A stretch of DNA of 39,812 nucleotides. It comes from Akkermansiaceae bacterium. Its GTDB lineage: Bacteria; Verrucomicrobiota; Verrucomicrobiia; Verrucomicrobiales; Akkermansiaceae. A model generated the notes under the pieces. The model worked only from the letters and a program-made list of their open reading frames with translations. It had not been told where the DNA came from and searched no databases. Shown here piece by piece: positions 10,026-13,702 of the stretch (positions within the stretch are counted from its first letter, which is position 1; each line of letters opens with the position of its first letter). Made by a program: the position numbers and the translations under genes. Location of the stretch: positions 1-39,812 of the forward strand of contig JAKMGP010000303.1 of assembly GCA_022424905.1 (NCBI GenBank), written 5' to 3'.

Positions 10026-11645
10026 ATGAGCTCGAGTTACCAAAATCGTCAAATGCGCTGGAGCAAATGGGTGAAGATCCTAAAACGCCTATGGGAATTT
10101 GCCTGGAAAGGCGGCCTTACCCTACTCATCCCCCTCTTGTTAATGATTGGTTGGTACGCTTGGCACGCCAGCAAGTTCGACCTATCCGAAACCTCCCGTA
10201 TGCCCGAGCGCACCGTATTACTTGACCGTAATGGGATCGAAATCGGGACAATCCACGGAGCCAACCGTCGCCTTGTTGAGTTCGAAGAAATTCCCACTTT
10301 CCTGAAAATCTGCCTTTTTGCTCGGGAAGACGCCCGCTTCATGGACCACGAAGGTGTCGATTTCTTGGGCCTAGCCCGCGCGACCTTGAGGAATGCCAAA
10401 GACCTCGACTTCACCCAAGGGGCTTCCACCCTTTCGATGCAACTGGCACGAAATACTTTCGATTTACGTGAGAAGAAATCCCTAAACCGAAAGTTCCTAG
10501 AGATTGCGATCACCTACCGCATCGAATCAAAATTCTCAAAATCAGAAATCCTAACGGCATATCTCAATCGAATATATTTTGGATCCGGCTTCAATGGTAT
10601 CGAAGAAGCTTCCCTCAACTATTTTGGCCGCCCTACCTCCAGGCTAACCAAAGGCCAATCTGCTCTCCTCGTCGGGATAATCAGAGCACCACACGCCTGC
10701 AGTCCGTGGCGCAATCTCGAGGGAGCAGTCCGCCAGCGCAATGAAGTCCTCGACCGGCTCATCACCACTGAGGTGATCACCCCAGAACAAGCTGATGCCA
10801 TCAAGTCCCAATCTCTCGATCTTCGTAATCCCAACGCCGGAGATCTTGAGACCGATCACGGAACACGCGTGCTGCGGCGTCCTCTCGAAATCGTTCTCAA
10901 CGAAACACAGATTACGACTGGTGGCTTGGAAGTCATCACCTCAATTGATTTTCAGCTTCAACGTCAACTTGAAAAGCTCGTCCAAGAATCCTCGATTCCG
11001 GATGGATGCCAAATGGCTTCGATCGCTATCGATCCCCGAAACGGAGATATTCTTGGAGTGGTCGGATGCCGTGAAAAAAAACCCACCGGCTTCAACCGAG
11101 CCCTTGATTCCCATCGGGACCTTGGCCCGCTCATGATTGAGCCCCTGATCGGGACAATTGCCCTCGAACGCGGACACCTACCAATTGTCGGAAACCCAGT
11201 CGCTACAGGACGTCAACTTCAGGCTCAAGACGCAATCCAGCTACTCAAAAGATTTGGATTTGAGGGCACTTTTGGACTTGGCGAAGATCTTTACCGGGGA
11301 ACCCTTAGCGTCTCACCGCTTGAATTGGCGACTGCTTACGCCACCCTTCTCCAAAATGGCTCGCGGCCTACCCCCGTCTTCGTTCGCGAACTGATCCAGA
11401 AAGAAAGGACCCTCTTCTCGCGCCCCGCCGCCTCTTTCCCCGCCTTCGCAGATCATTCTCGATTGAAAAAAATTCCAGATTTCATCAGTGGTTTATCCCT
11501 TCCTGGAACTGATCATTGGGCTGCCACCCTTACCCCGGAGAAAGTGATTGTTGTTTGGATCGGCTACGATAATCCCAAGCCCTTCAATTTAAGCGCTCGG
11601 CAATCGCAGAGATTGAGAACAGACCTTCAGCGAATCGCTCGCTAA
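10026..11645 (+). CDS. GT51 peptidoglycan glycosyltransferase with degenerate transpeptidase domain
   Basis: 539 aa, short for a class A penicillin-binding protein (commonly 600-850). A membrane anchor lies at about 31-47. The GT51 domain (about 60-235) looks active: catalytic Glu101 in AREDARFMDHEGVD, QGASTLSMQLARN, and SKSEILTAYLNRIYFG. It should polymerise lipid II into glycan strands on the periplasmic face. The C-terminal half keeps scaffold blocks of a PBP transpeptidase (ASIAIDPRNGDILGVVG, then SPLELATAYATLLQNG, then VVWIGYDN). At the acylation site, where a GSxxKP-type motif is expected, it reads GPLMIEP (367-373), losing both Ser and Lys, and the KTGT equivalent reads SLPGTDH. The transpeptidase is therefore probably inactive. 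It follows the membrane protein gene by 12 bases. Confidence 0.88.
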   Translation: MSSSYQNRQMRWSKWVKILKRLWEFAWKGGLTLLIPLLLMIGWYAWHASKFDLSETSRMPERTVLLDRNGIEIGTIHGANRRLVEFEEIPTFLKICLFAREDARFMDHEGVDFLGLARATLRNAKDLDFTQGASTLSMQLARNTFDLREKKSLNRKFLEIAITYRIESKFSKSEILTAYLNRIYFGSGFNGIEEASLNYFGRPTSRLTKGQSALLVGIIRAPHACSPWRNLEGAVRQRNEVLDRLITTEVITPEQADAIKSQSLDLRNPNAGDLETDHGTRVLRRPLEIVLNETQITTGGLEVITSIDFQLQRQLEKLVQESSIPDGCQMASIAIDPRNGDILGVVGCREKKPTGFNRALDSHRDLGPLMIEPLIGTIALERGHLPIVGNPVATGRQLQAQDAIQLLKRFGFEGTFGLGEDLYRGTLSVSPLELATAYATLLQNGSRPTPVFVRELIQKERTLFSRPAASFPAFADHSRLKKIPDFISGLSLPGTDHWAATLTPEKVIVVWIGYDNPKPFNLSARQSQRLRTDLQRIAR

Positions 11646-11732
11646 ATTGGCCTAGCAAGCGCTTTAATACTTCTTAAAGTTTCTCCACCTGCCTCACGAC
11701 CTCTTGATGAGCCCCTACTCTCTGAGGGCACG

Positions 11733-11762
11733 AAAAAACCGGAAGAAATCTTCCGGTCTTTT
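11733..11762. terminator. Bidirectional terminator between convergent genes
   Basis: ACCGGAAGA (11738-11746) pairs perfectly with TCTTCCGGT (11749-11757). Six A precede the stem and TCTTTT follows it, so both strands show a U-rich tail after the hairpin; the tail is best on the minus strand, after the selenoprotein gene. It lies between that gene and the plus-strand glycosyltransferase gene. Confidence 0.82.
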
Positions 11763-11786
11763 GCATGATAAAACAATAAACTCTGA

Positions 11787-12182
11787 CTACTTTTGGGCGA
11801 GGAGCTTGGCCACCACGGCATCGACTTCTTTCTTGCCATAAGTGTGGCCTTCGATCGTATCGACGAGTTTACCGCTCTTATCCTTGGCGATAATACCGTG
11901 CCCCTTGAGCTTAGCCTTTTTGATTTCCTCTTTGCTCTTGCCGGTTCCGACGAGGACGTTTTTGAAGGTGATTTCTTTTCCCTTTGTCTTTTTGAGATCA
12001 TTCACGATGACCGAAATTTTTGCACAAAGCGGTCATCCGTCGAAGTAATAATAAGTGAGCGTGGGGATTTTAGCTTCAGCTGCGGCCTTCACCACAGGAG
12101 CCTTGGGCTCATCTGCTGAAGCAGTAGTGATTAGGAGGATGGGCGCCACAGCTGCGACCATCCAAGCAATTAGTTTTTTCAT
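11787..12182 (-). CDS. Candidate selenoprotein: exported thioredoxin-like protein with UxxC
   Basis: 131 aa if the in-frame TGA at 12033-12035 is read as selenocysteine. The frame starts at ATG 12182 with a signal peptide (MKKLIAWMVAAVAPILL, cleavage near ASA-DE), runs through a short Ala/Lys-rich linker to LTYYYFDG, then TGA-CCG-CTT-TGT (U-P-L-C, Sec at residue 50), and continues without a break to TAG at 11787. The rest alternates strand and helix as in thioredoxin folds and ends in a VDAVVAKLLAQK helix. A strand, a CxxC-type motif and a helix at this position make a redox active site. No obvious cis-Pro is seen; GHG lies at about the expected place. TGA is a normal stop elsewhere in the window (folD, aroB), so global recoding is unlikely. 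The alternative is a nonsense-mutated pseudogene, or use of a GTG at 12005, which would drop both signal peptide and active site. Confidence 0.8.
11991..12037 (-). promoter_or_regulatory. Candidate bacterial SECIS element
   Basis: On the minus strand two mutually exclusive hairpins follow the TGA. Hairpin A has an 8-bp perfect stem, GATGACCG (12037-12030) with CGGTCATC (12013-12006), whose 5' arm includes the TGA. Hairpin B has GGTCAT (12012-12007) with ATGATC (12001-11996), including one G-U pair, a CGTGA loop, and a possible TTT/AAA lower stem (12016-11991). In B the apical loop begins about 26 bases after the TGA and has G among its first two bases, which fits the known bacterial SECIS geometry. 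It lies inside the coding region, as in other bacterial selenoprotein genes. Pairings were made by eye. Confidence 0.55.
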
Positions 12183-12253
12183 CCCAAGAAGACTAGCTAG
12201 TAGAAACTTCATGGCAAGCTAATGCCACATGACTTCGATTCAGCCACTCCGCC

Positions 12254-13702
12254 CTAGGCCAGGAGATCTTTCACGACCTTGCCATGGACATCAGTAAGGC
12301 GGTAATCACGGCCTTGAAAGCGGTAGGTGAGTTTCTCGTGGTCGAACCCAAGAAGATGCATCCAAGTTGCTTGTAAATCGTGAACATGGACCTTGTCACG
12401 GGCCACCGAAAAACCAAGATCGTCAGAAGCACCGTGGGTGTATCCCCCTTTCACTCCTCCACCAGCCATAACCATAGTGTAACAATCAGGAAAGTGATCG
12501 CGACCAAGGACCTTTCCCTTGGCCGTTCGGCCTTCTCGGAATGGAGTCCGCCCAAATTCTCCGCCGAGAATAATAAGAGTGTCTTCAAAGAGGCCACGCT
12601 CCTTGAGGTCATTGATCAAGGCCACAATCGGCTTATCCATGGTGGCACATTTATTGGTAAGCCCATCGCGTATGTCTTCCTTTGGATTTGTCCCGTGGAA
12701 ATCCCAGCCCCAGTCAAAGAGCTGAACAAAACGAACTCCATCTTCGGCGAGACGCCGGGCGAGGAGGCAGTTATTAGCGAAGCTCGAGGCACCTGGTTGA
12801 GCACCATAGGACTCAAGAGTCTTCTTTGATTCCTTTGAAATATCCATAACCTCCGGGACTGACATTTGCATACGAAAGGCTAGTTCGTATTGTGCCATGC
12901 GAGTCAGCGTTTCAGGATGGGCAAAATCTTTTGAAGCGGCCTCATTGAGAGCACGGAGGGCATCAAGGCTGGAGCGACGCAGGCTACGATCCATGCCCGG
13001 AGGGTCAGTGACATAAAGAACCGGATCCCCTTTTGAACGACACTGCACGCCTTGATGGACAGATGGAATAAACCCCGAACCGAAAGAACTCTTCCCGCCA
13101 TTCGGCTGCACTCCACTCGAGATGAGGACCACGTATCCGGGAAGGTTTTGGTTTTCCGATCCCAGACCGTAGGTAGTCCAGGCTCCGAAGGTCGGTCGGC
13201 CCGGCTGCTGGAAGCCGGTGTGCACGAAGAGCTCAGCAGGAGCATGATTAAAATGATCAGTCGTCATCGAATTGATGATGCAGAGATCGTCAGCCACACC
13301 GTGCAAGTGCGGAATCGCGTCAGACATCCAAAGGCCGTTCTTGCCATACTGTTTAAAAGTACGGGGGCTCCCCATCAATTTGGGGGTTCCTGAGGTGAAG
13401 GCGAACTTCTTCCCCTTGATATATTCGTCCGGGCATTCCTGGCCGTCGCGCTTCACGAGCTCGGGCTTGTGGTCCCATAGATCAAGGTGGGGCGGTGATC
13501 CCGTGAGGTGAAGATAAATCACCCGCTTCGCCTTAGGCGCGAAGTGCGGAAGCTTAGGAAGGAGCGGATTGTCCGGAGCTTCTAAGCCCATAGCATCGGA
13601 CGCGAGCATCTCGCTAAGCGCAACCCCGCCAAGACCCATGGAGCATTGTTTGAAAAAGTGCCGCCGCGTTTTGTATTGCAGGCTTTCTAACTGTGGATTC
13701 AT
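12254..13702 (-). CDS. DUF1501 secreted protein (copy 1)
   Basis: 482 aa. DUF1501 proteins are sulfatase/alkaline-phosphatase-like proteins, abundant in Planctomycetota and Verrucomicrobiota, nearly always next to PSCyt1/DUF1549/DUF1553 partners; their reaction is not established. The N-terminus has a Tat-type motif (KTRRHFFKQ) and a hydrophobic stretch, so it is exported folded. Typical blocks are AKRVIYLHLTGSPPHLDLWDHKP, FVQLFDWGWDFHG, and LIILGGEFGRTPFREG, with possible metal ligands in the GGEFGR and GRDHFPD segments. It follows its partner gene after 23 bases on the same strand, so both are probably one transcript. A related copy lies at 21795. Confidence 0.9.
   Translation of the reverse strand: MNPQLESLQYKTRRHFFKQCSMGLGGVALSEMLASDAMGLEAPDNPLLPKLPHFAPKAKRVIYLHLTGSPPHLDLWDHKPELVKRDGQECPDEYIKGKKFAFTSGTPKLMGSPRTFKQYGKNGLWMSDAIPHLHGVADDLCIINSMTTDHFNHAPAELFVHTGFQQPGRPTFGAWTTYGLGSENQNLPGYVVLISSGVQPNGGKSSFGSGFIPSVHQGVQCRSKGDPVLYVTDPPGMDRSLRRSSLDALRALNEAASKDFAHPETLTRMAQYELAFRMQMSVPEVMDISKESKKTLESYGAQPGASSFANNCLLARRLAEDGVRFVQLFDWGWDFHGTNPKEDIRDGLTNKCATMDKPIVALINDLKERGLFEDTLIILGGEFGRTPFREGRTAKGKVLGRDHFPDCYTMVMAGGGVKGGYTHGASDDLGFSVARDKVHVHDLQATWMHLLGFDHEKLTYRFQGRDYRLTDVHGKVVKDLLA

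Follow-up and report, generated by a model that had tools for sequence, protein, structure and literature searches.

The window analysed here, a stretch of 39,812 nucleotides from an Akkermansiaceae bacterium (assembly GCA_022424905.1, contig JAKMGP010000303.1, contig C85 in our numbering), carries on its minus strand, at 11787..12182, a gene for a protein of 131 residues in which codon 50 is a TGA, almost certainly read as selenocysteine (Sec), and the stop is a TAG. The best overall explanation of this gene, to which we assign a probability of about 80%, is that it encodes an exported thioredoxin-fold selenoprotein with a UxxC active site (U, Sec) that would carry out thiol-disulfide exchange in the periplasm. 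To judge from the sequence, UGA 50 is almost certainly decoded as Sec; that the product is an exported thiol-disulfide oxidoreductase, most likely periplasmic, is a prediction we consider likely to hold. In the mechanism that we propose, which combines a predicted fold with an inferred export, redox activity and role for two histidines, the ribosome would read UGA 50 as Sec, directed by SelB on a hairpin just downstream, and the product would be exported via its signal peptide and would fold as a single thioredoxin domain with the active site Sec50-Pro-Leu-Cys53. The Sec selenolate would then attack a disulfide, a sulfenic acid or a similar oxidised sulfur, and Cys53 would resolve the intermediate. 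His95 and His113, placed around the active site by homology, would probably serve to tune the selenol or to bind a ligand or a metal.

An initial annotation of this DNA had described a single TGA in a minus-strand frame from an ATG at 12182 to a TAG at 11787, with the motif U-P-L-C directly behind a LTYYYFDG strand. Translation with TGA as U confirmed both statements. That is, the protein runs from M1 to ASA23, continues through a low-complexity linker to LTYYYFDG and U50-P-L-C53, and ends with a further 78 residues. The TGA of Sec50 lies at 12033..12035 and the TGT of Cys53, the invariant Cys of the UxxC motif, at 12024..12026 (all features of the gene are on the minus strand), both located by translation and alignment with homologues. 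The signal peptide (residues 1-23, 12114..12182) was delimited by eye and from the N-termini of homologues. Of 19 genus-level match rows, 18 have an ATG aligned with that at 12182, and 4 have one ten codons upstream; the start at 12182 is therefore likelier than the in-frame ATG at 12212, which would give a 10-residue N-terminal extension (12183..12212). The anticipated truncation by a gene caller, to a 72-residue fragment started by GTG, matches a listed open reading frame (ORF) at 11787-12005. Likewise, TGA proves to be an ordinary stop elsewhere in the window, since it ends 10 of 25 main ORFs, picked by hand.

The in-frame TGA is conserved well beyond what chance would give. Among 144 related genomes, 30 match rows were obtained in 29 genomes, and 28 of these rows (27 genomes) contain exactly one in-frame TGA; of the remaining rows, L047 is a fragment and L048 a Cys form. 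In an alignment of 28 sequences (A1), the TGA falls in one single column. A scan of GTDB with peptide patterns that do not touch residue 50 yielded 42 relatives, all 42 with TGA at the Sec50 site; their titles name mostly uncultured Verrucomicrobiota, including Akkermansiaceae and Roseibacillus, and one Lentisphaerales, and several mention sea sampling. An order-wide profile search of 386 genomes returned 52 rows in 50 genomes, of which 45 have exactly one in-frame TGA and 7 have none, the latter being four C-F-L-C Cys forms, two ordinary WCGPC thioredoxins and a fragment in G071. The active-site motif was found in 109 of 119 fetched loci (those numbered L020 and up, repeats of the same genomes included), and its first residue is U in 109/109; the 10 loci lacking the motif are Cys forms, ordinary thioredoxins, one fragment and one chance match. 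Both kinds of homologue that the initial annotation had envisaged, with TGA or Cys at this site, thus exist: TGA in close homologues and Cys in four distant ones (L117, L118, L119 and L135; profile E value 4.6e-16). No close Cys form was found in the genomes searched; G540 has one Sec copy and one Cys copy. The family is narrow, as a sample of 387 genomes from the phylum contained it only once, in the genome of the window. The contig titled Lentisphaerales (L086) holds a typical member, which may be due to an earlier origin, to transfer or to misbinning.

Selection on the coding frame was assessed from 57 sequence pairs, equal in length and 80-97% identical; this analysis and that of codon use drew on 50 sequences, with one N-containing sequence left out. 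The ratio of nonsynonymous to synonymous rates (dN/dS) is 0.073 after the TGA, the first 14 codons being omitted, and 0.021 in the 8 codons that precede it. Constraint on the protein thus extends to both sides of the TGA, and the purifying selection beyond it argues against a pseudogene. A pseudogene, a sequencing error or a pair of distinct short genes would agree with the 72-residue ORF that is all a gene caller shows after the TGA, and with G071, which has only one piece of the family: its C-terminal third, near a contig end, with an in-frame TAA just upstream (L127, G071:C67), a state that may stem from decay or from an assembly fault. However, the TGA is kept across independent assemblies and genera, under strong selection on both sides, and this conservation contradicts such explanations, which we regard as extremely improbable. 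The pattern to be expected of them, namely homologues with a stop or an unrelated codon at the site and no conservation downstream, did not appear: the TGA and the protein beyond it are both kept. A pseudogene, two genes and a changed genetic code were dropped on the grounds of conservation, dN/dS and stop use.

The window's genome (4.05 Mb in 347 contigs, 92.8% complete and 5.3% contaminated) contains the full Sec machinery; a genome devoid of selA, selB or selC, which the initial annotation had named as decisive against a selenoprotein, is not what we found. A profile search identified selA (487.8 bits), selB (312 bits) and selD (381.4 bits), and the tRNA-Sec (selC) scored 54.4 bits against a gathering score of 47, with the anticodon TCA according to ARAGORN. 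Each of these genes lies on a contig other than C85, and it is conceivable that one of them stems from a contaminating genome. The selD gene (L018) has its own in-frame TGA (locus position 1531), preceded by CGG in the protein, and a possible hairpin downstream. Of the 144 related genomes, 70 have selA, 67 have selB (E <= 1e-70) and 74 have either one. All 29 family-bearing genomes are within those 74, and none of the 70 genomes lacking both genes has the family (Fisher p 1.6e-10, uncorrected for kinship). There are gaps, in that G022 has the TGA form and no detected selA, and G005, G008 and G016 have it and no detected selB; the stated completeness of these four genomes is 72, 80, 88 and 65%, respectively. 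UGA readthrough is known in bacteria, and near-cognate suppression or a changed code might place a residue other than Sec at position 50. Yet TGA stops 10 of the 25 main ORFs in the window, and the Cys homologues at this column, the complete machinery and the link with selA or selB all point to Sec, which makes this explanation very improbable.

A hairpin resembling a selenocysteine insertion sequence (SECIS), absent from the initial annotation, adds independent support for the Sec reading. It lies at 11996..12012, as delineated by folding, covariation and codon use; 26 nt follow the UGA, and then comes a 5-nt loop (CGUGA) closed by a 6-bp stem (GGUCAU/AUGAUC). In loop, stem and spacing it matches the bSECIS model of PMC13188914 (cited here, like the other papers below, from the portions of text available). 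Alignment A2 was built from 51 distinct sequences around the TGA, omitting L032 and L046, which are duplicates of L030 and L042 there; across 48 distinct sequences, 96.9% of the stem cells are paired. The loop is CGUGA in 43/49, AGUUG in 5/49 and AGUUA in 1/49, that is, with a G at position 2 followed by a U in 49/49. Two pairs of the hairpin show double-sided changes. In one lineage (L124, L125 and L126), the pair U26-A38 has become C-G, with a joint replacement of Val58 by Ala and of Asp62 by Gly; this lineage keeps the stem pair by compensatory changes. Synonymous differences per site amount to 0.073 in codons 7-13 after the TGA vs 0.41 past codon 14, and codons within this segment are nearly fixed (Val58 GTC 46/47, Ile59 ATC 44/50, Val60 GTG 44/50, Asn61 AAT 45/45), whereas conserved Val, Gly and Ala elsewhere in the gene use all four codons. 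Lys64, Ser83 and some other sites are also codon-biased, so the hairpin does not account for all of the bias. Codon 49 (Gly49, 12036-12038), immediately ahead of the UGA, reads GGA in 45/49, while other invariant glycines use all four codons; this GGA might base-pair with the hairpin arm. The genome contains three exact copies of the hairpin core, GTCATCGTGAATGA: in the window gene, in a second copy of the gene on contig C325, and on contig C321. The C321 copy has no TGA at the matching place, and this further occurrence is no evidence for more selenoproteins.

AlphaFold predicts a thioredoxin fold, and we place the domain at residues 40-130 (11793..12065). The Pfam thioredoxin model PF00085 scores the protein at 12.7 bits, below its gathering cut-off of 23.5. 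By sequence alignment only (HMMER, MAFFT and hhalign), Gly96 falls at the place of the thioredoxin cis-proline and His95 at that of the residue before it (His95-Gly96, 11895..11900); the cis-proline that would precede the last strands is, in these alignments, not present in the window protein. All 28 sequences of A1 share Cys53, His95, Gly96, Gly112 and His113 without variation. Gly112 matches a conserved glycine near the thioredoxin active site, which we take to be Gly92 of the E. coli protein, and His113 is next to it (11844..11849, at or beside the loop of that glycine). As His-Gly replaces the usual cis-proline, it would be unsafe to presume the chemistry of an ordinary thioredoxin. Regarding export, the Sec forms, inspected by eye, have a hydrophobic N-terminus ending in ASA, ALA or similar, and the N-terminal stretch of the four Cys forms ends in L-x-[GA]-C, resembling a lipobox. 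The earlier proposal of an extracytoplasmic thiol-redox selenoprotein is thereby supported, with an extracytoplasmic location and a putative thiol-redox activity both likely, since a signal peptide, a UxxC motif and a predicted thioredoxin fold come together in one protein.

These residues also admit a second reading of the active site, in which codon 50 is still Sec and this Sec, the Cys and the two invariant His would together make up a site for a metal or metalloid (copper or mercury, for example) or one that handles peroxide. Loss of the cis-proline can permit metal binding in thioredoxin folds, and here His-Gly stands where the proline before the last strands is expected; moreover, besides the invariance of Cys53, His95 and His113 in the 28 aligned sequences, these residues are kept, together with Cys50, in all four Cys homologues, as is Gly96. 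Nevertheless, the fold and the UxxC motif are those of thioredoxin, and no metal-linked neighbours were found in the gene clusters examined; we consider a metal or peroxide site improbable, though far less so than a misread or decayed codon 50.

Several observations weigh against an exported Sec-dependent oxidoreductase as we propose it. There are few Cys homologues, all of them distant. The bSECIS model asks for a minimum free energy <= -7.5 kcal/mol (Fig 2 legend, PMC13188914), and with the hairpin kept only 20/49 sequences reach this value, as folded over a stretch (UGA plus 45 nt) that may differ from the one used by the program. The hairpin of the window copy has -5.7 kcal/mol, and the free fold of the same copy, at -7.4, is another helix, which pairs the UGA. 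The 81-nt stretch around the TGA folds no better than shuffles (z -0.58), and constraint on the hairpin bases is not fully separable from that on the invariant residues of its codons. The rival helix, UGACC/GGUCA, reaches 89.2% pairing, and one of its pairs shows seven double changes. Neighbour clustering over 62 loci (the window, the 42 GTDB loci, 18 of the 19 order-search stretches, L135 among them, and L049) revealed no partner gene that recurs across the family, and the putative function is modelled on fold and motif only. As for the choice of helix, the UGA-pairing one was tried as the SECIS element and set behind the downstream hairpin, which we prefer because the rival fails at one pair in 21/48 sequences and at another in 3/48. 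The UGA-pairing helix may be an alternative fold, or there may be a switch between both helices; kinship raises the shuffle controls of both.

No Pfam or NCBIfam (release 20) model was matched by the window protein near its cut-off, and a comparison of 28 family members gave none but weak matches. Its two weak NCBIfam matches, neither of them a selenoprotein model, are the thioredoxin TrxA model NF047697 (18.8 bits vs a cut-off of 140; best E 3.2e-06, 27/28 members at E <= 0.1) and the thylakoid slr1796 family NF038096 (15.8 bits vs a cut-off of 140; best E 0.00035, 28/28 members at E <= 0.1). With thioredoxin (PF00085), including the Sec-containing UxxC thioredoxin of PMC13188914 Table 1, the protein shares the predicted fold, the place of UxxC and the approximate domain size; unlike thioredoxin, it is, as predicted, exported, has no Trp before the motif, and has His-Gly for X-cis-Pro. 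SaoT (NF040730), the DF family (NF049942) and TsoX (NF045809) are likewise Sec-containing, thioredoxin-like families with redox motifs, and they match 6/28, 5/28 and 1/28 members weakly (best E 0.0042, 0.016 and 0.0082); none of the three matches the window protein at E <= 10. The Cys-containing C-F-L-C lipoproteins of the same order, namely the four distant homologues, share Cys53, His95-Gly96 and His113, but have Cys rather than Sec at position 50 and a lipobox rather than a plain signal peptide, and are about 30% identical to the window protein.

Also comparable are the thioredoxin-like UxxC selenoproteins from sea water in PMC2398784, GOS 'Trx-like 3' and GOS_C (NF045500). The GOS_C model gave no match to the window protein. 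'Trx-like 3', compared by description only, has UxxC, resembles cd02950 at E > 0.001, is commoner in marine samples, and has 183 Cys homologues in GOS vs few for the family described here; according to the text available, it is the main route by which our family could have been seen before. In literature on selenoproteins, including those of Verrucomicrobiota and Akkermansiaceae, no such family appears among the matches listed, supplements and figures being outside the scope, and the string 'verrucomicrob' is absent from the available text of PMC13188914, PMC9312934, PMC2398784, PMC12013277, PMC5029168, PMC9402790 and PMC5330540. Thus, as far as these sources go, and with 'Trx-like 3' known by its description, this is likely a new selenoprotein family. 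A thioredoxin-like selenoprotein with UxxC is of a known kind; the missing cis-proline and the paired histidines set this variant apart.

If our reading is true, it adds a family from Verrucomicrobiota to the prokaryotic selenoproteome. It would also mark a blind spot of detection reliant on Cys homologues, of which this family has few and distant ones; the authors of deep-Sep state, in the text available, that their method may miss selenoproteins without Cys homologues. More tentatively, and with the odds rather against it, Sec may be the rule in this family, for which no close Cys forms were found in the genomes searched, and the loss of the cis-proline together with two invariant His around Sec50-x-x-Cys53 may create a selenol-imidazole or metal centre with a chemistry unlike that of known thioredoxins, while the SECIS hairpin steers the protein sequence. 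This last element comes from the lineage in which two amino acids changed together and the base pair was kept, and that compensatory change offers a direct way to test the conflict between the constraints on RNA and on protein.

The gene appears to stand alone. Its neighbours in the window are, on the upstream side, a DUF1501 gene (12254-13702) and a PSCyt1/DUF1549/DUF1553 gene and, facing it, a gene for a penicillin-binding-protein-like transglycosylase. DUF1501 genes adjoin the family in several lineages, in varied orientation (L071, L073, L077, L129), and also the Cys form L135; such genes are common in these bacteria, and we therefore conclude nothing from their adjacency. No sigma-70-like promoter was found within 11600-12400. 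A scan located a terminator-like inverted repeat (11738..11757) between the selenoprotein gene and the convergent gene at 10026-11645; it was called on the plus strand, and on the minus strand a T run comes next. Finally, the same assembly holds a second orthologue in the same gene order (L049, G000:C325:9150-9542), which with its flanks is 98.5% identical over 3393 bases to the locus in G017 and about 88% to the window. Because 5.3% of the assembly is contamination, this copy most likely belongs to a second species in the bin and is not a duplicated gene.
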